DNA of 64,000 nucleotides from Trissonchulus latispiculum (lineage: Eukaryota > Nematoda > Enoplea > Enoplida > Ironidae). The position numbers and the translations under genes were made by a program. Of this stretch, positions 1-45,200 are shown one piece after another. Positions within the stretch are counted from its first letter, which is position 1. Each line of letters opens with the position of its first letter. Under the pieces are notes generated by a model. That model was not told the origin of the DNA and ran no database searches. It saw only the letters and a list, made by a program, of their open reading frames with translations. The stretch spans positions 62,001-126,000 of the forward strand of contig JASAND010021268.1 in the NCBI GenBank assembly GCA_030248195.1, given 5' to 3'.

Positions 1-2214
1 ATGTAAACGACCATTAACGTTAAGTTGGTCGAAGAATTGCTTGGACATCAAGCAAATATTAGCACCTGTGTCCAACAGGGCTAGAGTCTTGATGCCCTTC
101 ACCTCCACTATAACGTACGGGCTTTTCTTCAAAGCTATATGGGTACATTGAGAAACGAAAAACGGTACCGTCCCATTCAAAACAGAGAGTACCGCTCTGT
201 TTAGGTGTTTATTTGGAGTAGTGGGTTGCCCACTAGCTTCCTCACTGTCACTTGCTTCCGCATCCAGGTTAAACTCGACTCGTCTGCCTGGGGTGAGCGC
301 AGCCCGAAGTTGTTCTTCTAGATCCCAGATGCCATACTTATCCCCAAGATCAGTAGAAGTCACTTCTTGCTGATTGACCGGGGTTGCGCCTTTTTCCGCT
401 GAATTCGCTGTTATATCAGCCACTTCTGGGGTTGTTACTGTAGTGCCCGTTTGCTGGACTGTAGCGCCCTCCACTTCAGCGGAAGTAACTTCCTGCTGAA
501 TAGGTGTGGGATCCTCTTCCAACGGCGTACTGTCCAGTACTATAATCTCGTTCGGGTCATTAAGTCGTACGCCACGTCTGCCTTTCCTAGGCTGTGGGGG
601 GTCCTCGGACCAAATGGGTTGGTCCGGTTCACGGAGCACTCCCTTTTGTTGGAGCTCCAGTGTACGCTCGTAGTCCTTTTGGGCGAATTCCGCTAAGAGT
701 TGTTCAAACTCTTGCATGGACTGGCGTACCTGGTCCGTCACGGACATTACGTTCACGGACAATTGTTGGATCTGTTCCCCAATAGACTGGGCTACCACGT
801 GGGCCTGCTCGACTGCTTGTGTCACGACTGCCCAGCCATGTCTAATAGGCGCATAGTCCTGGACTTCTAGCAGAGCGAATCTGTTCTGAGTGGGAACCGC
901 TGCCCGCTCAGTACCTGAGGAGGCTTTTGACTTCCGAGTTACTTGTTCCCATTCGCCGTCCGTGTCTTTTCGAAGTTTCAACGGCGTTACTGGTGTACCT
1001 CCAGTACCGTGAACTTCAACAGGGGCAAGAGTTAATCCTGAACCCTCTGTTTCATCATCCGAGGCGTCACTTTCCGTGAGTTCTCGCCTTGTTGGGTTAT
1101 TGGCCGTGGCCCAAGGCTGTAAGTTGCCTCCCCGTTGCGGAGGAGATGCATCAGTGACCACTATTCTGGGTGGTTTTCGTTTGCCCGCTGGAGTCTCGGG
1201 TACCACCTGGGTAGAGGTAGAAATGCCAGCTACTGGGGTATCCCCAGTGCTTACTGATGAAAGCCCATTACCCGTAGGTTGGCTGTCCCCAGGGCTTTTA
1301 GCTTGCTCCCCATTTACAGGGGCCTGGTCTTCCCCAGGGCTTTTGCGATTAGCCCCTACCTCAGGCTGGTCCTCGGTTTCCGACAGGGCCCAGCGCCGCA
1401 ACGGTACTAGAACTCTGATCGGATCTGTTTGAACCTCCTTGGATGTTGAGGTCTTACGTTGCCTCCGAGTCGTACCCGTCCCGGGTTGCCTGGCGCGGGT
1501 TTGAGCTGCCATGACGGCGTTATTTTCCTGCCACTTCATGGCCTTTCGTATGCTATTAAGCATATTCCATTCCGTTCCGGGTGCTCGCTTCCATTTCTTT
1601 CGAGCAGGCACGTTATAATTGCGTTCGGAGGCTCCTCCATCCCCGAAGGGTTTCACTTCCTTGCGCCATCTATTCCAATATTTGTATGGCCGCAGGTTAC
1701 CTTCGCCATCATAGATGACATCGCCCCCATCGGGGAAGCCACCATTAGCTAGGACCACTTCCTCAGTTGGAAACCATTCGGCCCGTCGCCGCACCTGCTT
1801 GCAGGATTTGCACGGGCACTTCCACGGGTTCACATCCTGATCTGTGTCTTTATTCAAATACAGGCACACAGGTTCCCGCTTTGCTTTGCAGGCCTTACAT
1901 TTACATTTCCATTGATTCAATGCTTGGGTCGCCCGAGCATTAAGTTCGAGAATTGGGTGAAGGTATTCTTTGTCTGGGAGGGGGTCAGCCCCTTCCAGAT
2001 GTTCGGCATCGCTATCACTCTCGGAGTCACTACTCCAGATGCCGCCACGGTTCCAGCAGGGATCGTTCTTAATTGAGTAAATCATGTCAACAAGGTTAGT
2101 ACTAGTTGCTTGCACCGCACAGACCATTCCGCCAGACGGGTTTGCCGGTGCGGGACACGGGTCCAGGTCTACTGCCCGCGTCCCGCCTCCTCGTTTCCCT
2201 GCTCTGGGAAACCT
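1..2214 (-). CDS. pol: Retrotransposon Pol, N-terminal part with aspartic protease (runs off window)
   Basis: The minus strand is open without a stop from 2214 to base 1, overlapping the end of gag by 46 nt in the -1 frame. Near the window edge (about 130-1) it reads a retropepsin-like segment with ALLDTGANICLMS, the DTGA active-site signature of retroviral and LTR-retrotransposon aspartic proteases. About 650 residues precede the protease. They include two Cys-rich patches (CKCKACKAK and CPCKSCKQ, about 1800-1910), a basic segment, and a long Pro/Thr/Glu-rich stretch. Reverse transcriptase, RNase H and integrase would lie to the left, outside the window. No AUG is needed if translation enters by frameshift from gag. 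The protease signature and the overlap with gag make the Pol call firm. The clade (Ty3/gypsy or other) cannot be fixed without the RT. Confidence 0.88.
2150..2199 (-). promoter_or_regulatory. Programmed -1 ribosomal frameshift signal between gag and pol
   Basis: Near the end of gag, in the gag frame, the minus strand reads G GGA AAC (2199-2193), a canonical slippery heptamer of the X XXY YYZ type. Six bases later a 12-bp stem begins: GCGGGACGCGGG (2186-2175) pairs with CCCGTGTCCCGC (2161-2150), with one G-U pair and a 13-nt loop. Slipping back one base enters exactly the frame that stays open through the protease. The gag stop codon lies in the loop. Loop bases TAGAC could pair with GTCTG downstream (about 2138) to make a pseudoknot, which is a guess. 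A second, weaker heptamer T TTC CCA lies a few codons upstream. Confidence 0.85.
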
Positions 2215-4748
2215 TCATACCGGCGTGGGCCCACATAACCTCTGCTTATAGAGCGCGGCCGCACCGGCTGCCTCTGCTGCTGGCCTTGCTGGGCCTGTTG
2301 GCCTTGCTGCCTTTGTGGGTCCTGTTGGCTGCGGAAGTCTTGATTCCGCTGGCCCTGATTGCGCTGATCCCGGTCGTAGCGACTCCGGGCAGGGGGGTTA
2401 CCCTCCTGATCGCGCACGCCGTACCGTGTGTGGACATTACCCCTTGCCTGGTTCTGGTCCTGGTTCTGGTTCTGGCCGTTCTGGCTCAGATACTGCAGGT
2501 AGTCTGGGCATTGTTGCTGTCTATGCCCCACTAGACCGCAATACCAACACCTGCCCGGTGCCTGACGTGGGGGTGGTCGCTCGTCGTTGCGCTGATAACC
2601 TTGGTTGCGACCCTGGTTCGGCTGCGCTAGTTGCTGTTGATTCTGCTGGCTCCGCTGGTTCTGCTGGGGTCTCCCCTGCTGAACGTTGTTACATTGTGGA
2701 CCCTGACTTTGGGCACTAAAGACCGTAACGGCCTGTTCCCGGTCCAACTCCACCTGAACCGACTCTACGATATGTAGAGCTCGAGTTATTAGGTCGTTCT
2801 CCCGGACATGAGGCCAAAATTGGATGTCCGCCAGCGGAGCAGCCATTCTAGAGCGCAGCTCAGACTTCAAGCCTCGTTTGAACTGAGCAACCACCTTCTT
2901 TTCCCGATCGAACCCAGGTTCGAACGGAAATGCCTGAACCGCTAGCAAGCGTAACGCTGCCATATAATCGTGCGGTTTTTCCTGCGGTTCCTGCATTCGA
3001 CTGTAGAACTGCTCCGCATACTGCTCCGTTGTTACCGGCAATGGCTCATACAATTGTCGGATTCTAGTCACTAGATCCTCAAAGGTATCGGGTGGACATG
3101 GAGTCATAGACTCCTTAACCTTATCATCTAACAATGTCCACAGAATTCTATACTTCATGTTAGAGGGTACGTCATGTACCTTGACTGTTGTTTCAAAGTT
3201 AGCGAGCCAGCTGGTAAACTTGATATTACTCTGCGATCCTTGAAAGGGCCTAACCCCTTTGAAGCCTTTCAGGTACTCCCCCAGATGCTTGAAGCTCTCA
3301 TATGACGACGGCTCTCGGGTCTCGCGAGTTTGCGGTCGTTCCGACCGTTCTCGACGGGGCGCACTGTATTCCCGTTCACGGGAATACCGGCGAGGACTCG
3401 ACATCCGCTGTACCGGCGGTGGAGACTGATGGGCCCGGGACGAGGTTCTAGATTGATGAGAGTATTCCCTTCGACGGCGGGGTGATTCCCTGATTGGTCC
3501 CCTCATCTGGTCATCAGATGAGTCTAGGTCGATTATGGGCGGAGCTCTCCGTTCGTTCCCTCGACCACGATAGACGGGCTCCGGACTCGGATGTCTCGTC
3601 AGCGGGGGCTGTCCCATCTGATATGGGGGCGCGCCCGCATTCGGATCCTCTCTAGGAGTAGGCCACAGCCGGAGCAGCTCAATACATACCCGCGGAAACG
3701 TCTGCTCCAATGCTTCCCATGTTTCCATCGGAAGCCCTGCTATCCATGCTGTCATAAGCCCACGAATCACGCTGTATTCTCGGCTGGTCATATCACGTAT
3801 CCGAAACATTCCCTCCGTATCCCGTCGCGGGACCGGGAGCTGAGGGGGGGCCGGGGTTGGGTCCCGCAACGGGACCACCCAGTCGTCCATCGGTCCACGT
3901 ACCCGTGGTTTCCGGTCAGGTTCCGGGTCGGGGTCATTACCGCCCGGCCGTTGGCTACTGATTGCTCGTTTCGGATACTTTACCCTAGTTAAGTCTATAT
4001 GCGCTGTAGACCGGAATCGCTGTACCGGAGCCGCCGGTTCACTAGGTCCCGGAGCTCTGGGGTTATCCTTCTGTTGTAGTTTAGGGCGAGTATATGGCAA
4101 AAATGGCATAATGCCGGGCTGGCGGCGCATAACCGTGCTGTCCGAGCCCAGTCGTGGGCGCTGCTGGAATAATTCCAGTTCCAGTTGAGTTAAAAAGTCA
4201 CGTAAATCCTTTATGTCCGACATATCCGGCAGAGACCGTCCCGGTACATCTGCACCAGTCTCCTGCCGCCGGAGGTCAGCTCCGAAGCGGGCTAGCTTGC
4301 GTCGGACATATTCCAGTTGGTCATGAATGGTTGCCTGTTCATCCCAGTCATCTTCACTGGGTTCTTCTGATATCGGGGATTGAAATTCGCCTGGGTTATT
4401 AGAGGTCCCGTCCTCATGTTGGGCATCCGGGTCACCCGGGTCCAAAGCGTCTTCATCAACCTCTTGTTTAGAAGAGGCTTTATTCTTAGCCGTATCAGAC
4501 CTGAGCACTGGTCTGCTAGATGCTGCACCGTCAAGCTCTTGGCTTGAGGGTGCCCGGCTAGACGCTGATTGAGTAGAGGAACTCTTGCTCAATGCTGACT
4601 GGCTTGATGTGAGCCGCCCAAAACCGTGCTGCTTTAAAGGCCTTGTATCCGTCGAGTCACTCGAGCTAGTCGGATCACCCGGCTTAGCTGAGGCCTTAGA
4701 TGATTTCGCAGGAGACCGCAAAACCGACATTATTACAGTTAGTCGCAC
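2169..4748 (-). CDS. gag: Retrotransposon Gag polyprotein with CCHC zinc knuckle
   Basis: This 859-residue protein has the layout of an LTR-retrotransposon Gag. Residues 1-480 are Ser/Pro/Arg-rich and look disordered. A retrotransposon-gag capsid-like region lies at about 480-650, around FKGVRPFQGSQ and the YRILWTLLDD block. A CX2CX4HX4C zinc knuckle (CWYCGLVGHRQQQC) lies at about 733-746. The tail is very Gln/Asn/Arg-rich, typical of nucleocapsid. Gag packages the element RNA and builds the particle. The reading frame is intact, so the element is probably young. Its GC content is clearly higher than that of the flanks. The first ATG is at 4748; a second ATG six codons later (MSVLRSP) is an equally possible start. 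Pol follows by -1 frameshift. Confidence 0.93.
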   Translation of the reverse strand: MRLTVIMSVLRSPAKSSKASAKPGDPTSSSDSTDTRPLKQHGFGRLTSSQSALSKSSSTQSASSRAPSSQELDGAASSRPVLRSDTAKNKASSKQEVDEDALDPGDPDAQHEDGTSNNPGEFQSPISEEPSEDDWDEQATIHDQLEYVRRKLARFGADLRRQETGADVPGRSLPDMSDIKDLRDFLTQLELELFQQRPRLGSDSTVMRRQPGIMPFLPYTRPKLQQKDNPRAPGPSEPAAPVQRFRSTAHIDLTRVKYPKRAISSQRPGGNDPDPEPDRKPRVRGPMDDWVVPLRDPTPAPPQLPVPRRDTEGMFRIRDMTSREYSVIRGLMTAWIAGLPMETWEALEQTFPRVCIELLRLWPTPREDPNAGAPPYQMGQPPLTRHPSPEPVYRGRGNERRAPPIIDLDSSDDQMRGPIRESPRRRREYSHQSRTSSRAHQSPPPVQRMSSPRRYSREREYSAPRRERSERPQTRETREPSSYESFKHLGEYLKGFKGVRPFQGSQSNIKFTSWLANFETTVKVHDVPSNMKYRILWTLLDDKVKESMTPCPPDTFEDLVTRIRQLYEPLPVTTEQYAEQFYSRMQEPQEKPHDYMAALRLLAVQAFPFEPGFDREKKVVAQFKRGLKSELRSRMAAPLADIQFWPHVRENDLITRALHIVESVQVELDREQAVTVFSAQSQGPQCNNVQQGRPQQNQRSQQNQQQLAQPNQGRNQGYQRNDERPPPRQAPGRCWYCGLVGHRQQQCPDYLQYLSQNGQNQNQDQNQARGNVHTRYGVRDQEGNPPARSRYDRDQRNQGQRNQDFRSQQDPQRQQGQQAQQGQQQRQPVRPRSISRGYVGPRRYEGFPEQGNEEAGRGQ

Positions 4749-5930
4749 GCAACGTGGTCTAACTAATTATCAGTGTATACGTACCGTGTACACTGCTCCG
4801 AGAATACCGGTAAAAATGCAGTAAAACGCAGAGAAGAATTCAGAAAAAACTGGATGAGATCAGAAAAATTATTTAAAAACAAAGACCTATAAAAAGAACA
4901 GAACCGAAGAAAAAATTACTAAAAACTAGATAAAAATAAAAATAAGGTCGTGGACTGGCAGCCTAATGTAAAGTTGGAAGTGTACGAACAACCAAACTTT
5001 ACGAGTGGGAAACTGTGCACAAGGGTAACGTCGAACCTGGAGGAGATGTAGTTCCAGTCGACCTAACTAACCTCGCCAAATACTACCTAAGTGAAACCTA
5101 CCGAACGGATTTAAACCGCCGATGAAGAGCAAAGACTCAATTAGAAACCTACCCCAAATTTGCTGAAAAATGCACACTTAAACAAACTAACTACCTACCC
5201 AATAAATTCTTAGAAAAAGCCCTACTTACCGAACATACAATTCTAATACAAAAACCTAAACTAAATAAGACACCCTAAAATGGTCTAAAAGAGACCACAT
5301 TTACTTGAAAACAGTTATGCTTGATAATGGGGCGAACCCCGAAAATGCGTACAATAAATTTTGAAAGCAAATTACAGAGTACAAAGTAGCCTAACTAAAC
5401 AGTGAAGCAACAATAGAGCGTAAAAATACAAAGTACACAGTGATTTCTATTAACCCGGGATACTACAATAAATAAACCAGAGAAAAACTACCCAAGTAAA
5501 AGAAACCTAAACTTATAGAGAAGTTTCAAAAGACTAAGAACAATAGATTTAAAAACAAATAGAGACAAGATAAATATGAAAAGTCTGGCTCAACAGGGTC
5601 AACCTGGAGCGACTAGAAGTCTAGAGGAGTAAACCCTTTAGACATATAAGGTAACTAGTAAATAAACACAGCTAATAGGGGCAGGATAAAGCACAGTAAA
5701 TATAAAGAATACAAGGGGAGCACAGATAGAAAAACACGACCGCGCACGTTAACGTCAGGACACTAGACTGACTAAGTTTTGAGACGTCTGGATAAGACCA
5801 GTTTTGAAAGAGCGTGGAAGAATTTGATTGGATAGTTTTGAGACCCCCTTGAGAAGTGAGATGCTGGGAGAGGCTTCGAGAGAAAATAGACGTCTCAACA
5901 GCGCCACCTATTGACTAGGCTGGCTGATAC
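4749..5930 (-). repeat. 5' LTR/leader region of the gag-pol retrotransposon
   Basis: This is the sequence just upstream of gag in the element's orientation. About 4940-5300 matches, with divergence, the reverse complement of about 20.30-20.65 kb. Shared blocks include the stretch around GGAGATGTAGTTCCAGTCGA and the ACCAAACTTTACG block. The outer LTR ends and the primer-binding site could not be fixed, because only one LTR lies in the window. Confidence 0.6.
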
Positions 5931-35277: not shown

Positions 35278-37770
35278 TTATGTAGTATCATCATTGGCTT
35301 CCTCGTGTTCTTGTTCTTTATCTTGCGTTGCTAGTTGTGCACCACTATTCTTCGGGTTTCCATCATCTGTCATTGCTAACATTGAGCCTACCTTTTTGCA
35401 AGATCTTCTAATTCTTTCTGCTAAAGCAAATAAACACAAGTCCTACTACTACGGCAGCAGGTTACAGGTCACAAGTAAATCTGCCTTAAGAAATTTCAAA
35501 GACACAAGGTCAAATTCAAATTTGGGTCACTTCGCGGACTTAGGCAGATTCGTTTAGACCAGTTAAATGCTAACGTTCGCAAAAACAATTGCCGAAAAAG
35601 CCAACGCATTATGATTTCAAACTTCTACATTTGGGATTTGCATAAATCAAAGGAAATGTTAAAAGAATTAGTTAAGGTACATAATTTTTCAGTACAATTT
35701 CAGTACACAATGGTTAAATGTTCAGTCAGTTATGTATAAGTGACTATATATGTGACTAAGTGACTAAGTGACTAAGTGTATATATAGCGGTGTAGTTGGA
35801 GATAATCTAAACCATGGAACTGGAGTCGCTCATGGACTTGAATTAAAAAAATTAACTTGAAGGAGCACTTATGAGCAGTATCTATATATCATTAAGCACA
35901 TTTATCATAAAGAAATAATGAAAAACGCCTGCCTGCAGTCACTAAGGCAAAAGCCTAGTCCGAAACGGGAGAGAGCCAATGGGCGCGGTGAGCGCTCCTA
36001 CCCAGGGAAAACTATTCCCTGGAGCTCCTGCCTGGTTGTCCAAGAAGGACAGCCAGCTCGCTCTATCTATGCTGCAACATAGCCAGAGAAGGTTTTAACA
36101 AAACCTGTCTGACTGTGCTATGCACAGAAAGAGGACTGCAGTGGCCAGCGGATTTCCGTAAAGATACAAACAGCATTTACATCAAGAAAATGAAGTAAAC
36201 GTGCGCCAGCAGGCGGATCCACCAGGGATACAAGATCCTTGTTTCCCTCGTGAATCCTCCTGCTGGCCCGCGTTTACTTGATTAAGCACATCTATATTAG
36301 TTACAGTAGGATATTTACTTAATCTGTAATGACATACTTGTCTAAGTCCATTGCCTTTAAATAAGCTTGTTTAGGGTGCTCAAAGTCATCCAAATGAGCT
36401 AAGATCACTGAAATGTAATGAAGCAAAATAAAAACGATAAAAGCAATATATGATCATACATTTATATGTTATGCGAAGTAATATCCATGGCCGCCTCATA
36501 TTAGGCTACTTGGAATAAGCACAGGAACACGCTGATGATTATTGCCCAAATTGTAATTTTGCATGCTGATTACATAGCTAATAGATTAAGGGCGCCAATT
36601 CCACATTTTTTCATGCTCTTGCAAATTCTTCAAATCTGGATCCGACATACCTGCAAGTAACGAAAATAGAGGAGCATGCCTTGGCTGCAGATTAACTGCA
36701 GCGCTGGCGAAATGGAAAGCAGATGCGTACTGATGCATGGTGACATACACTGTTGCCAAATTTGTCATAATCTTCCAGTCCAGTGGTGCCAGGTAGTTTG
36801 CTCGTTTTAAGCAGCTGATTGCCTGAAGCCGAACTGCAGATTTTTCAATCATTACAACTGTAACCAGGAGATATACAATGGCGATTTCGATTATCACGCA
36901 AAGCAAAGTGAAACTGTCTGATGATTTTGTGAAGCAGGGCTGGTAATCTCTGATGTATTGCATTTATGTTTAATGTCATATTACTCAAGGCCCAGTTACT
37001 TAAAAAATAATGCAAATCATGAATTCATACGGCTACATATTTTTTCTTTCCATAAAAGCACCTGCCCACATTGTTCCATATTTGGGCAGAGTCTGGCCAT
37101 GCAGCCGCTGCAACCCGATATTTTGTTAGTGCTACGTCATAGTCCCCATGCTCCTGCATCATTCGACCCGCTGCCATGATAGCACCACAGTGGCTCGGAT
37201 TGAAGCTCAAAGCTTTCCCTAAGCATTCGAACGCCTGTTGAAATGTACCACGTTAAAACGTCAAGAAGAAAAGTCGAAGATGGTTAGGTTAAACTAGGCC
37301 AAAAACAGTTTTGAAATTGTATTTTCGAAGACTACCCAGTCAAACGTATATTGTCTCAAGGCAGCGGCAAAATCACCTACAATAGCGTGTACACTTTCAC
37401 CATCGCGAATTCTAGTTTGTTTCTAGTGTTAATAAAAATAGTTTTGTCCTCAGCTTGGTGAGGCATGGGGCCAATTCATCGGACTTAAAATGAGACAGAG
37501 GGTAACTTTCTGTAATTTGTAAACCTGCTTTTGGCAATTGTACTATAACTTAATATACCCTTTGCAATGAATCTCATATAATTATCTAGTTGGAATGCTT
37601 AAGTTTGCAACTCTGTACATTGTACCGGAATGGTATGGTCTGTTAGTGATTTAATACTTTCATATTTTGGACATATCAAAACATGAATTGTTCTATGGGA
37701 ACTGATAAACTTTACCTTCATGTACATCAAACCAAGGGTAGTGAGAATATCAGGATTCTCAGGAGAAACT
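35278..37770 (-). pseudogene. Partial decayed copy of the BBS4 3' half
   Basis: Exon copies correspond to exons 8 (37770-37716), 9 (37234-37031), 10 (36822-36651), 11 (36407-36338) and 13 (35420-35278) of the BBS4 gene at 42.3-55.6 kb. Splice sites are preserved. Intron sequence next to exon 9 is almost identical to the parent, so the duplication is of DNA, not mRNA, and fairly recent. Exon 12 is missing; a foldback element occupies that intron. Exon 13 has lost one A in an A-run, giving a TAG ten codons in. Upstream of exon 8 the homology stops at 37785, where a Polinton polymerase fragment begins. No start exons are present, so it is non-functional as BBS4. Confidence 0.88.
35903..36290. 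mobile_element. Foldback element, copy 2, in the BBS4 pseudogene
   Basis: It shares AGAAATAATGAAAAACG, GAGAGAGCCAATGGGCG and GGAGCTCCTGCC with copy 1. An inner hairpin at 36196-36285 has arms GTAAACG..GCCAGCAGG and CCTGCTGGCCCGCGTTTAC. It lies where exon 12 of the BBS4 copy should be. Confidence 0.7.
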
Positions 37771-37785
37771 CTATAATGCAAGCAT

Positions 37786-39034
37786 TTACTTGGACGCTAA
37801 CAATTTATATGGCTGGGCTATGTCACAAGCACTTCCGGTTAAAGACTTTGAAAGGATGGATGACTTTGGCGACATTGATTGGTTACGGCAACAGGTGGAC
37901 CAGGAAACAGGCTATGTGCTAGAGGTTGGCTTGGACTATCCTCAGCATTTGCATGACTCTCACAATTCGTATCCCTTGGTCCCAGAAAATTACTGACGAA
38001 ATGCTGTCTCCTTATGCTTCCAAACTGAAGAAAGACTTAACGATATGCTCTGGAAAAGTTTAAAAATTGGTCCCTAATCTCCTCCCCAAGAAGAACTATA
38101 TAGTCCACTACGCTAACCTGAAGCAATACCTGTCACTGGGTCTTCAGCTGACAAAGGTTCATCGCGTCTTGAAATTTACTCAGAAGCCGTGGATGCAACC
38201 CTACATCCTGTTCAACACGGAGAAAAGGAAGCATGCAAAGAGTGAATTTGCGAAGGATCAGTACAAGCTCCTCAATAATGCCGCTTTTGGCAAAACAATG
38301 GAGAATGTCCGTGCTTACCAGAACATTAAGCTTGTGACTGACTCTAAAAAACATGGCAAACTTGTATCTAATCCCAGATATAATCGCTCAACTATATTCT
38401 CTGAAGATTTGGTTGCTGTATCGATGAAAAGAGTAACTGTAGAATTATGTAAACCTATATATGTTGGGTTTTCTGTTTTGGAATTATCGAAATATTTAAT
38501 GTATTACTTTCATTACAATTACATTGTACCAAAATACGAAAATAATGTTAAGTTGCTTTTTACTGATACGGACAGCTTGTGTTATCATATTACTACTGAT
38601 GATGTATATAATGACATGTTACAGGACATTGATCTATTTGATACGAGCAACTATCCAAAGGATCATCCTTTACACTCGACACAAAACAAAAAAGTGTTGG
38701 GTAAAATGAAGGATGAAACTATGGGTAGTCCATTTGAAGCTTTTTGTGGTGTACGTGCTAAGGCTTATGCTATTGTATGTGATGGGATTGAGAAAAAACG
38801 ACTTAAAGGTATTAAAAAATCCGTGGTAAAAAGGGGGTTCATTTCAAGCATTATGTTTCTATTATTTTTGAAAGGTCTACTATGTATTGTGGTATGAATT
38901 TCATCAGAAGTGATAAACATAAATTGTATAGTGTACATGTAAATAAGAAGGGATTGTCTGCCTTTGATGACAAAAGATATTTATTAGACGATGGTGTAAC
39001 TAGTCATGCATATGGACATTATAACATTATGTAA
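37786..39034 (+). pseudogene. Polinton/Maverick-type family B DNA polymerase, C-terminal fragment
   Basis: This is protein-primed DNA polymerase B as found in Polintons and related virus-like elements. The fragment begins at a DANNLYGWAMSQALP block (37790). It then has a KTMENVR motif region (about 38290) and the catalytic [10 protein letters not shown] motif (about 38565). It ends with an SAFDDKRYLL..YGHYNIM-type terminus (stop at 39032). Stops lie at about 37994 and 38070, and the frame shifts near 38835 in a G-run, so it is dead. The N-terminal exonuclease part and other Polinton genes (integrase, ATPase, capsid) are absent. Its left border coincides with the end of the BBS4 duplicate. Confidence 0.85.
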
Positions 39035-39058
39035 TAAATGGATATTAGAAAAATAACA

Positions 39059-39193
39059 GATGTGGCATTGCCCACGGAAAAAGAGGTATAGCCCACAAAA
39101 AGAGGCATAGCCCACAAAAAGAGGCATAGTCCAAAAAATGAACATAGCCCACAAAAAATATACAAAACTATTAAAAGAGGCTAAAGTCCAAAA
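39059..39193. repeat. Short tandem repeat of about 20 bp
   Basis: Five imperfect units of AGCCCACAAAAAGAGGCAT, ending immediately before the hammerhead motif. Confidence 0.75.
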
Positions 39194-39252
39194 AACCGTA
39201 ACGGTAGCCTTAAGCCGTCTGATGAGACCCTTTGGCAGGGGTCGAAACGGTT
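39194..39252 (+). ncRNA. Hammerhead ribozyme, type III topology
   Basis: All conserved parts are present in order. Stem III strand AACCGT (39194-39199) is followed by A at position 17 (39200), so the cleavage triplet is GTA. Stem I is ACGG (39201-39204) with CCGT (39215-39218), loop TAGCCTTAAG. The core CTGATGA is 39219-39225. Stem II is GACCC (39226-39230) with GGGTC (39239-39243), loop TTTGGCAG. GAA is 39244-39246. Stem III closes with ACGGTT (39247-39252), pairing perfectly with AACCGT. The A15.1-U16.1 pair is present. Loop bases GCC (39207) and GGC (39234) could kiss. It should cut its own transcript after 39200. Confidence 0.87.
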
Positions 39253-39387
39253 AGAGCAGTCATTCCGGAGCCTATTGGCTCCGGCAAATAAGGTGCCCTT
39301 TTTGCACTAGAAGGAGTCCGGAGCACCTATACTTTGAACTGGGAATGGCTCCGGACTTGCGGTCGGACCGCCATTTTACGTCTACTC

Positions 39388-39972
39388 ACTTGCAATTGGT
39401 CGTAGCAGTATGGAATTAGTCAATTAGTCAATGTCACAAAGGATCAGGATTTTGGTTAAATTCTGGGTCAAATTGCAGGTTTAAATTCTTAAAGGGCAGG
39501 CTACTTTCAACTGAGTAGTTGATCCAACTTGATCAGATCAATGGCTGTACCTTGTCCTGGCTGGTGGGGGCTCCCGAAACCCCCCTACCGCATCGCTTTA
39601 ACCTATGGATACAATGAAATCAGTTTTGGTTTCCAGGAATAATGATAACGAATTTCAGATGAAATACAACCTTGCACACTTTTTGCAGACTGAAGCCAGT
39701 TTTTTGGAGGGGTATTTTTATATCAAAAAACACAAATTTATATCAAATAGATGGGTACTTTTTAATTATTACGAAATCGCTCTTCTAATGGAGAAGTTAA
39801 CTGAAATATATGTTTTGGTTACTATATTTTAATTTATTTATATAAATTTATATATTATTAATATTAATATATTAATTAATATTTGACCCAGAATTTAACC
39901 AAGATTCTGATCCTTTGTGACATTCACTAACTGACAAATTGCATACTGCTACGACCAATTGCAAGTGCAAGC
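39388..39972. mobile_element. Inverted-repeat element of about 600 bp
   Basis: Left arm about 39388-39472 (TTGCAATTGGTCGTAGCAGT, then ACAAAGGATCAG and TTAAATTCTGGGTCA) is the inverse of 39884-39970. The interior has no transposase. Confidence 0.65.
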
Positions 39973-40599
39973 CCCTCCAAAAGTCTAGTTTCCCGTGTTC
40001 TGACCCCATATTAATATTAATAAATTAATATTAATTTATATTTATATAAATTAATATATTTTTAGTTAATATATTTTGGTTACTTTTTACAACTTCAGCC
40101 ACAAAACGGCTATAGGAGAAACTAAAAGAAGAAAACGGTGTGTTTTAGCGTAAACCATAAGGAGGGGGGGTCTAGAGGAATTTTCGACCATGTTTGACTT
40201 TTTCACATATTTTATAAGTTCTCGTGGGTCCGCAGCACAGGACAGATGTATTGTTGCAGAACGTTCCCAATCAATCACAATAGTCCTCCAACGGTGACCC
40301 CCGACATGTGTTAAGCACAGGAAAATGTTAGGAAATGAGCAAATGAGCTATAACTTGGTACAATGTTAATCTGAACTGATTTCTGTACGAGGTGTTTTTG
40401 CATTCGCTCAGCGATTTTCCAGAGATTTTGAAAGTTGGATGGAGTCGGTTTTTGCACAATTCTAATTTACAAAATTCTCTAAAAATGCTTCGTCGTGGCC
40501 AAATGTTGACCAAAAACCAGCCATTCATTGCACATGTGAGTGTTAACGCAGTTCCCAGATGAAGATACAATTTTCATATGCACTATCCCTGCTGCCGAC

Positions 40600-40705
40600 T
40601 AGAGTTGTGCCCGGGCCTTGAATCGGGCCTTTGGGCCCGGCCCGATGATGTCAGTAGGATCGGGCCCGGGCACGGCCCGGAACATTTCTTGACGGCAAAA
40701 CTCTA
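40600..40705. mobile_element. Tiny hAT-like MITE with GGGCCCGG motifs
   Basis: 106 bp with ends TAGAGTTGTGCC and the inverse of GGCAAAACTCTA, filled with GGGCCCGG-type units. The 8-bp flanks CTGCCGAC and CTACCGAC differ at one base. Confidence 0.7.
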
Positions 40706-40861
40706 CTACCGACTGCTTGTGTATAGATCACACTTGTGGACGCCGCGTTGACGTTTTACATCAAAATGCGTCAATTTCTCAAATTTTTCGATATAATGGT
40801 CCATAGGTAGGGTGATAGCCGTGCATGTACAATGTACATAATAAAATAAGAGTACACTTCC

Positions 40862-41430
40862 GCATGTGATAAACATGCTTGACATGCTAGGTTCGTTAAC
40901 TCGCCCCCCCCCCCCGAATGTTTTAGGGGGGGGGGGTCCCACCCTACACTAACTACATGCGGTCATATAAGTGTGTGTCTGCTCGCTGATTCGCTAATTA
41001 GATTAAGCCTACGGTAGACACTTTATTAGTAATTTTTAATTATAACTTCAGTCAGGTTGATGCGATCAAAAAACTAATTCGACAACTCTGTAGCATTTTT
41101 TCTGCTCTTTCCAATGATACAAAAATTGTTGCACACTACATTTCTACGAAGTTTTGTTTTGCGGCACACAACATGCTGCAGAGTTGTCAAATTAGTTTTT
41201 TAATTGCGTCAACCTGATAAAAGTTATAATTAATTAATTAAAAATTACTAATAAAATGCCTACGGTAAGCTTAAGCTAATTGTCGAATCAGCGAGCACAC
41301 ATACAGTTATATGAAAGTATGTAATTAGTGTAGTGTGGGACCCCCCCCCCGAAAGTTTAATTTCGGGGGGGGGGGGCTGAGTCCCGATTTAACGAACCGA
41401 GCATGTCAAGCATGCTTAACACATAGTAGC
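40862..41430. mobile_element. Inverted-repeat element with oligo-C/oligo-G hairpins
   Basis: The arms share AGCATGCTTGACATGCT and GGTTCGTTAA in inverse orientation. Just inside each end a run of about 10-12 C faces a run of about 10 G across a short loop (about 40904-40937 and 41341-41377). Further inside, ATCAAAAAACTAATTCGAC is inverted too, so most of the element folds back on itself. Confidence 0.75.
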
Positions 41431-41439
41431 GTAAGGGTT

Positions 41440-42290
41440 TCATACTTGGGTACTCTTGGTTAAACCAAGTTCATCAAATGCCACAACGGAACTCAAGACA
41501 AGAATTATCTGAAGATTCATTGCATTTCACAGTTAAAGGGAGGGTCGCTTGAACTGTGATCGTTGTAACACTTCGTCAAAACCTGACATTCCTTAGCTAG
41601 TCAGCAATACAGCCGTAGCTAGTTCTTCTTTTTAAAGAAGAATGCCAGCTACCTCAGTTCACTAGTTATGCTAATCCTAAATAATTTGTGTTATGCTCTT
41701 TTCTTTTAAATAAGTGTTATGCTTTATGTTTAGATTGGATTATGTTTAGATGATCTTTGGACTATGTTAAAGTTAGCTTTCGTGAAAGAAACAAAGCTCT
41801 AAAATGCAATTTTGCAGTTTTGCACCGAGTTTTGTGTGGAATGTTTTGAATTTGAATAACTATTTTATTCAATATTGCTAAAGTTCACTCCTATCGTAAG
41901 TGCCTTAGTAACGAGCAGGCATAGCAAACTGGACGCTCAGAAGTGCTGTTTAAGGTTGTGCTAAACCTGCAGCAGTCATTTCACGTAGTTACGATAATAT
42001 GTTACGATATGCTGTAGTTATAGTTGTGATATCTTGTAGTAGTGACATCGCTGCATGCTTCCGAAAACAAACTTTTACAGTTCAGCAGTAGCGGAAATCG
42101 CGCAATACGCATAATCATTAAACATTCTGAAATTTTTGCTTAAACATTTCTCGGAAAATTGAGATGTACAAGTATTTTTTTCGAAAACCAGAAACTGGAC
42201 ACGGCTACTGGAAAATGTTTCTAGCAACACGTCTATGTCTCGCCCTACAATAGCGTATGACTGTCATTATATGTTTTTTTACACAGAGGT
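41440..42290. other. 3' flank of BBS4, no feature
   Basis: Non-coding. Bases 42250-42290 are homologous to the 3' flank of the pseudogene (GCGTATGACTGTCATTA), so this is probably BBS4 3' UTR or trailer. Confidence 0.4.
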
Positions 42291-42294
42291 GTTT

Positions 42295-45200
42295 TCATGA
42301 TTTAATATCTTCATTGACTTCATCATATTCGTTGTCCTGCGCTTCCGGTTGAGCTCCACTACTCTTCGGGTTTCCATCGTCTGTCATGGCTAACATAGAA
42401 CCTACCTTTTTTGCAAGATCTTCTAATTCTTTCTGCTAAAACATGAAACACAAGTGCGACAACAACTCTAGTAATCTACAGGTATGATGACGTATGATGA
42501 TGATGATGATGATGATGTATGGTGATATGACGACATTTCAACATGATTCTATTAACATGGATACTGCATCACTGTTCTAATACTATAACCATTATCCGTT
42601 GCATACGTTGTCCAAACCTTTATGACTTTGCACTTATGCATATAGAATTTACTAAACCAAAATGCTATAAACGTAAATTCTATAATAAACGTAGAAATGC
42701 CCTATATACATAGTTGCAGTACTGATTACAACATATTAACCTCTGGAATGCGTTGTTTTGTTTCTTTCAGTTTTTGCATCCTGCTTAAATATTGCTGAAA
42801 CAGTTCCATAGCGGTGCCGCGGTCTTCGTTCCTCATACAAAGTACTGCAAAGTTTAGCGGAGTTGTCGGTGATGATCTAAAAAGTAGATATGTATACTTT
42901 ACATATACTGCCATACGTTTGAAGCAGTTCAATGCTTTAACGAACTTTTAACCAGATGCACACACGATTAATCACATTGGTAGTAGTGCATTTTCTGCTT
43001 TATATTTGTATTTGAATAAAATCTTTTCGATTTTGTATAACTGCTGGTTACTTATAAAGTAAACAAACTACTTTGTTTGCTTGTTTGCTTGTAGCTATTA
43101 TTTCCAACATCATTTTCTAAGCCTTTGCAACATACTTGTCTAATTCCATTGCCTTTAGATATGCCTGCTTTGAATGTTCAAAATCATCCAAATGAGCTAA
43201 GATCACTGAAAGGAATTAAACCAAAAGCAATACTCATTTCAGTTGTCTGACAATGTCATATGTTTGTGTATTCAAAAACAAAATGTTGTTTAACCTATAG
43301 CTCTAAGTACTTATTATTTGTCTTATAATACTTGTTCAATTTACATGTTCTATTAAATTTTTAATAATACATATTTACATTTCTGTACTTATTACTTATT
43401 ATGCCGACATACCTGCAAGTAACGAAAACAGTGGGGCATGCCTTGGCTGTAAATTGATTGCAGCGCTGGCAAAATGAAACGCAGATGCGTACTGATGCAT
43501 TGTAACATAAACAGTGGCCAAATTAGTCATGATTTTCCAGTCCAGTGGTGCTAGGTAGTTAGCTCGCTTTAAACAGCTGATTGCCTAAATTTCAAATTGA
43601 GGCATTTCCCAGTCATTTTTAATTAGGTATTAAATAAGGTAATGGCAAACTAAGAACTCAAAGGGGAATTTTGACACTTTCTCAAATGCAGACAGTAGAC
43701 ACATGAACATTTGTTTCAGAACTTTGATTGATCGAGCATCCAGTATTATCTAAACACTCTAATGTACTGCTGCATACTGACGTTATTATTGTGCCATTCT
43801 AAAGGTTCAGTACTCGAGAAATAATGTTATAATCGAAATTCGTACAGCAACATATTTTTTCTTTCCATAAAAGCACATGCCCACATTGTTCCATATTTGG
43901 GCAGAGTCTGGCCATGCAGCCGCTGCAACCCGATATTTTGTTAGTGCTACATCATAGTCCCCATGCTCCTGCATCATTCGACCAGCTGCCATGATAGCAC
44001 CACAGTGGCTCGGATTGAAGCTCAAAGCTTTCCCTAAGCATTCGAACGCCTGTTGAAATGTACCACGCTAAAACGTCAAGAAGAAAAGTAGAAGATGGTT
44101 AGGTTAAACTAGGCCAAAAACAGTTTTGAAATTGTATTTTTGAAGACTACCCAGTCAAACGTATATTGTCTCAAGGCAGCGGCAAAATCACCTCCAATGG
44201 CGTGTACACTTTCACCATCACGAATTCTAGTTTGTTTCCTTCCAGTGTTTATACAAATAGTTTTGTCCTCAGCCTGGTAAGGCATGGGGACAATTCATCG
44301 GACTTAAAATGAGACAGAGGGTAACTTTCTGTAATTTGTAAACCTGCTTTTGGGAATTGAACTATAACTTAATATACACTTTGCAATGAATCTCATATAA
44401 TTATCTAGTTGGAATGATTAAGTTTGCAACTCTGTACATTGTACCGGAATGGTATGGTCTGTTAGTGATTTAATACTTTCATATTTTAGACATATCAAAA
44501 CATGAATTGTTCTATGGGAACTGATAAACTTTACCTTCATGTACATCAAACCAAGGGTAGTGAGAATATCAGGATTCTCAGGAGAAACTCTATAATGCAA
44601 GCATAAGCATAAGCAACATGAGTAGCAAATTTAACAGACAAATACAAAGGTACCAGTATACTGCAGAGCATATGCAGCGGCCGATGTGCCAATATAAGAA
44701 ATGACTGCTAACCGTCTCAACCTAAGAATCAGATTCTTTGTTATTGCAAGATCCATCAAGCACACGTGTCCTAACAAACCTTAAAGGTACACTCTATCTG
44801 CATCTTAGCAGTCTAAATAGACATATTAAAGAAATAACAATAACTGCAAATACAAAAAGTGAACAAAATAGAATCACACATACTCCAGTGCTTTCTTATA
44901 AATTTCTATGGCCGTGAGTACTTCACCATCCTGTGCAAACATGTCCCCTAACAGTACCAGCGAACACTCCATCTTTTTAAGAGATATGGATCTTTGTAGC
45001 ATTTCTCGTGCCTATACGGAAAAGTCTGGAAATTAGCTCAGAACAATCAGTACTGCCTCAAGTTAGATCTAAATACAGAGTCGATAATTATTACGAGAGT
45101 CGAATTATAGTGAGATCTGTAACTTTTCGCACCATAGGAGCTGCACAAGGCTTTAGCTGCAGAACACAGGTAACGACAAAAAGCCTCAAAAATTTGCAGC

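Follow-up and report, generated by a model that had tools for sequence, protein, structure and literature searches.

The window, which is the whole 64,000-nucleotide stretch of Trissonchulus latispiculum DNA that was analyzed, contains on its forward strand a 59-nt motif that is almost certainly a real hammerhead, and this hammerhead is likely to be active. The reading that we prefer, and hold to be reasonably probable, is that of a genuine type III hammerhead, probably active, that was left as an orphan by a mobile or viroid-like RNA capable of self-cleavage. The coordinates of the ribozyme, its parts, and the neighboring features are given in Table 1.

Table 1. Positions of the hammerhead ribozyme, its components, and the surrounding features in the window.
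Feature	Position	Strand	Basis or remark
Type III hammerhead ribozyme, 59 nt	39194..39252	+	letters, fold, RF00008, strict motif, model R1
Predicted cleavage position	between A39200 and A39201	+	GTA triplet
Stem III 5′ strand AACCGT (open stem)	39194-39199	+	6 bp with 39247-39252
Stem I hairpin, loop AGCCUUAA at 39206-39213	39201..39218	+	letters, fold
Stem I strands ACGG(T) / (G)CCGT	39201-39205 / 39214-39218	+	4 bp, 5 with U-G
Core CUGAUGA (DNA CTGATGA)	39219-39225	+	letters
Stem II hairpin, loop UUUGGCAG at 39231-39238	39226..39243	+	UGGC tetraloop in 7-bp form
Stem II strands GACCC / GGGTC	39226-39230 / 39239-39243	+	5 bp, 7 in minimum-energy fold
Core GAAA (39244-39247), then stem III 3′ strand	39244..39252	+	letters
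Stem III 3′ strand ACGGTT	39247-39252	+	partner of 39194-39199
C-terminal part of Polinton-type DNA polymerase B relic	37784..39034	+	protein matches, pieces searched apart
Tandem repeat, period 19 bp, 4.9 copies	39064..39157	+	between polB and ribozyme
BBS4 exon, approximate ends	36642..36827	-	6xt9_D residues 296-360; copy at 43404-43589
BBS4 exon, approximate ends	43837..44067	-	6xt9_D residues 225-298; copy at about 37022-37245

Sequence and predicted fold of the hammerhead

The conserved CUGANGA...GAAA core and an NUH cleavage site were both present at 39194-39252, and the three stems were found in the correct order for the RF00008 topology, with stem III open. The minimum-energy fold of this 59-nt stretch was identical to the centroid fold, and both were exactly the hammerhead structure, with a free energy of -20.8 kcal/mol. 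The initial annotation had described a complete type III hammerhead here, and its core, GTA triplet, stem order, and open stem III were all borne out by the letters and the fold. Its end points and its predicted cut after 39200 were right on direct reading, and its stem lengths of 6, 4, and 5 bp agreed with the letters, with stem I extending to 5 bp when the U-G pair is counted and stem II to 7 bp in the minimum-energy fold. The folding energy of the hammerhead had a z value of -1.89, with 9 of 200 shuffled sequences at least as stable, and free energy by itself is weak support for the hammerhead.

A larger structured-RNA element at 39190-39390 was also considered and rejected. This region had a z value of -3.40 against shuffled sequences, and 39254-39380 one of -3.65, but other segments of the window scored as well or better. 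The structured stretch 39194-39380 was unexceptional, ranking 42 of 1358 on raw values and 115 of 1358 after GC correction.

Statistical support for the motif

A covariance-model search of the window had been suggested in the initial annotation, and it gave a divided result: RF00008 matched 39193-39253 over the full model with 35.8 bits, but the gathering score of 48.5 was missed. The E value of this match was 3.8e-6 when 451 b were compared with 4227 families and 5.8e-5 when 7001 b were scanned. When the whole window was searched at the Rfam gathering scores, 11 matches were obtained, all of them to tRNA, and the hammerhead was absent. Control searches were performed on 10 viral contigs, sampled from 124 that had been collected in hammerhead-pattern scans and whose motifs are putative ribozymes. 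Ten RF00008 matches were found in 7 of these 10 contigs at 30.2-45.0 bits, all below 48.5. The other three (L012, L016, and L122) gave no RF00008 match; L012 and L016 nonetheless carry the motif by letter search. Four further viral contigs yielded three matches at 36.1-39.2 bits, also below the gathering score, and none in contig L163. Thus, all 13 matches across the 14 viral contigs, which were picked for hammerhead-like patterns, lay under the gathering score. Because the control motifs score below 48.5 and some are missed altogether, the gathering cutoff appears to be too strict for this group and RF00008 misses some of its members.

A second covariance model (R1) was trained on 48 type III sequences from viral contigs. 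It scored the locus at 36.2 bits with an E value of 5.1e-8, which is rough owing to a short calibration, and the runner-up in the window reached only 11.8 bits. The R1 training set was gathered with patterns from the window's own core, which helped the score somewhat. A strict type III motif search (stems of at least 4 bp, G-U allowed) gave one match in the 64 kb; 60 Mb of simulated order-2 Markov sequence contained no match. The score below the Rfam gathering cutoff and the only moderately low folding energy would fit a chance resemblance without any ribozyme history. Such a resemblance is nevertheless hardly credible when the simulated sequence yields no motif at all, when R1 gives so low an E value even with its training patterns taken into account, and when the control motifs likewise fall under the Rfam cutoff.

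The loop-loop contact and related type III hammerheads

The initial annotation had raised a possible contact between the loops, which is plausible: loop I (AGCCUUAA) and the UGGC of loop II are able to form three G-C pairs, GCC with GGC. Two loops of 8 nt have a probability of about 0.4 of matching each other over some 3 bp, while the chance probability of GCC in loop I together with YGGC in loop II is 0.001-0.005.

According to the text available for PMC7936874, type III hammerheads occur in toad and termite delta-like RNAs, in two termite genomes, in flies, and in Drosophila pseudoobscura, and this group has a 5-bp stem I, GCCR in an internal loop, and YGGC in loop II. The termite-genome hammerheads are described there as isolated motifs whose carrier is not known. 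The D. pseudoobscura motif is credited by that paper to PMC3088659, in the main text of which the word Drosophila does not occur. The names epsilon and zeta virus are taken from the accessible part of PMC11721086. The present hammerhead resembles those of the delta-like (epsilon) agents, termites, dipterans, and D. pseudoobscura as PMC7936874 partly presents them in its type III topology and in its 5-bp stem I (here including a U-G pair), as well as in having GCC in loop I facing YGGC (UGGC here) in loop II and in being an isolated genomic copy. It differs from them in that the extra helix I hairpin of about 20 nt is replaced by a simple 8-nt loop, GCCU stands in place of GCCR, and the motif is found on one strand only.

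Pattern scans of IMG/VR contigs gave, among the matches listed, 51 type III motifs, which were spread over 40 of 252 loci and have the same core and the same topology as the hammerhead described here. The cleavage site was GUA in 7 of the 51 motifs listed, so a GUA site is ordinary. Both GCC and GGC were present in the loops of 4 of the 51 listed, a count that is biased upward because the loci were partly picked by the YGGC pattern. In terms of stem lengths, the viral motifs most commonly had a 7-bp stem I (35 of 51) and a 4-bp stem II (42 of 51), in contrast to 5 bp and 5-7 bp here. One type III motif, at 3296-3365 of contig L163 on the minus strand, has a stem I of 5 bp and shows GCCA within loop I and UUGGCC within loop II; it has no Rfam match at E ≤ 1 and scores 32.7 bits with R1. 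Its layout is close to that published for animal delta-like agents, and it lies on a viral contig whose ORFs include terminase- and portal-like ones, labels that come from our own reading of the ORFs rather than from a family search. The GCC/GGC pseudoknot had been considered as proof of a delta-like origin. This argument is weakened by L163, which has nearly the same layout, and such an origin is therefore not proven.

Comparison with other hammerhead classes

The expectation in the initial annotation that most animal hammerheads are type I was upheld by the portions of PMC7229834 and PMC7761336 that were available. Its view that the layout stands out was weakened, because type III hammerheads are already recorded in termite and fly genomes, D. 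pseudoobscura, and delta-like agents (PMC7936874, in part) and in mammals, where a discontinuous type III hammerhead is reported (PMC6155905, in part). Hammerheads of this kind are most familiar from plants and phages. The type III hammerheads of plant retrozymes, viroids, and satellites, as far as the available text of PMC7229834 and PMC7936874 describes them, share the topology and the core found here. Unlike the present motif, they have a 6-bp stem I, a loop II of 4 nt that typically closes a stem of 4 bp, and non-Watson-Crick contacts, and no repeat pair with hammerheads was found in the window. The core chemistry of the animal type I hammerheads of non-LTR retrozymes, PLEs, and Terminons is, according to the parts of the sources at hand, the same as here. 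Those hammerheads are open at stem I, whereas the present one is open at stem III and no motif-bearing tandem repeats were found in the window.

The polymerase relic upstream of the hammerhead

The initial annotation had placed the hammerhead just after a Polinton polymerase relic and a 20-bp tandem repeat; both are there, but the repeat has a period of 19 bp. The reading frame of the polB relic shifts near 37980 and again near 38830; a single stop interrupts it at 38061, and the apparent natural stop is at 39032. Of 5104 candidates in a protein search, 4535 reached E ≤ 0.001; those named among the best 120 were from spiders, molluscs, and a sponge, and a few of the polB-like matches among the best 120 of the 4535 carry PF03175. 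The fragment itself had no Pfam DNA polymerase match, and the name Polinton rests on the polB relatives and the initial annotation. No match to the polB was found in a phage collection, and a single-sequence scan of IMG/VR gave no relative. Related polB sequences were located at 37-66% identity (best segment) in 11 contigs, one of them from IMG/VR and the other ten from MAGs. No hammerhead was detected by motif, Rfam, or R1 in these 11 polB-bearing loci (L001 and L126-L135; 67,480 b), which are distant relatives.

The hammerhead starts 159 nt past the polB stop, on the same strand and directly past the repeat-rich spacer, and the few lesions of the relic (one stop, two frame changes) mean that the ribozyme and polB may share an age. 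These observations would fit a Polinton-borne ribozyme in the polB 3′ UTR that cuts the transcript 166 nt past the stop and so removes the poly(A) tail or frees an RNA end. This is an unlikely origin given that none of the 11 polB loci carries a hammerhead, distant though they are, and that the literature joining hammerhead ribozymes with Polintons, in the parts available, puts the hammerheads in Terminons/PLEs (PMC6431247) or viroids (PMC4609113) and holds no report of a hammerhead in a polymerase 3′ UTR. It is quite improbable that the polymerase 3′ UTR of a Polinton/Maverick DNA transposon contains a working type III hammerhead whose self-cleavage controls the polymerase mRNA.

The BBS4 locus and other features of the window

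A BBS4 exon segment is present in two copies, one on either side of the hammerhead, which is on the opposite strand. Self-comparison paired 37022-37785 with 43837-44604 at 96.5% and 36642-36827 with 43404-43589 at 87.6%. This is a tandem duplication of the BBS4 exon segment in which the flanking parts are only 78-88% alike, and the uneven identity may reflect recent copying, gene conversion, or assembly haplotypes. Among solved structures, the best match of the exon corresponding to residues 225-298 was an engineered TPR protein (3.3e-58), with BBS4 second (1.1e-34), and BBS4 was first for the exon corresponding to residues 296-360. The left BBS4 copy ends at 37785, and polB homology begins at 37784 in 5 of the 8 relatives compared. 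A plain BBS4 intron was rejected as the setting, because self-comparison shows a duplicated segment and the ribozyme may be either intronic or intergenic between the copies.

The BBS4 pre-mRNA reads the opposite strand, and the ribozyme is unlikely to serve this gene at present. A ribozyme co-opted by the host to regulate an antisense or intronic RNA at this locus would be in keeping with the flanking BBS4 copies and with the hammerheads published in amniote gene introns (PMC6155905 and PMC3088659, both in part). We consider it very doubtful, in view of the strand of the ribozyme and of the region 37786-42250, to which nothing in the duplicated BBS4 segment corresponds and which contains transposon-like debris. 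Intactness was tried as a sign of selection and rejected: 54-34% of simulated copies were intact at 2-3.5% divergence (54% at 2%), and the polB relic has few lesions, its divergence of about 2% being a rough estimate from those lesions rather than a measurement.

Just downstream of the ribozyme is a MITE-like element (39387-39967) whose terminal inverted repeats are 87 bp long and 93% alike, followed by a 561-bp imperfect palindrome (40864-41424; 76%) with C/G runs, a foldback that yields several sub-threshold miRNA-family matches. The eleven tRNA-like matches spread over 21731-62565 fall into two or more sequence kinds and are probably tRNA-derived SINE copies. The segment 32216-33379 contains a direct repeat whose two copies are about 485 bp apart and give near-identical open frames. 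An 865-aa open frame on the minus strand (2169-4766) has a weak, below-cutoff zinc-knuckle (gag-like) match, and none of its 7999 protein-search candidates reached E ≤ 0.001.

Origin and possible action of the hammerhead

If the forward strand is transcribed, the RNA would fold as drawn, and loop I may dock on loop II through the short GCC/GGC pseudoknot. Hammerhead cleavage yields a 2′,3′-cyclic phosphate and a 5′-OH, and self-cleavage of this RNA after A39200 would leave these ends. The presumed source is a retrozyme-like or delta/epsilon/zeta-like RNA that entered DNA and left the copy seen here, which is solitary in the window.

Motif search and self-comparison of the window gave no second motif copy, no tandem unit, and no repeat of the hammerhead block, and no target-site duplication of at least 5 nt was found between 39151-39200 and 39371-39400. 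In terms of an endogenised delta-like agent, neither of the marks looked for was found: the minus strand of the window has no type I or III hammerhead motif, and no delta-antigen match, nor any RT match, was obtained in the nine nearby ORFs scanned. The absence of a target-site duplication, a second copy, and an opposite-strand ribozyme counts against any specific carrier. We thus agree with the initial annotation that the host element is unclear, since the searches for a second copy, a duplication, delta antigen, and RT did not demonstrate a source element.

A type III hammerhead in an animal genome is not unprecedented in the sources partly available, and the surprise is moderate. Type III is nonetheless the less usual hammerhead topology in animals, and well-placed copies such as this one help to decide between relics of viroid-like RNAs, animal retrozymes of plant topology, and ribozymes borne by DNA transposons.
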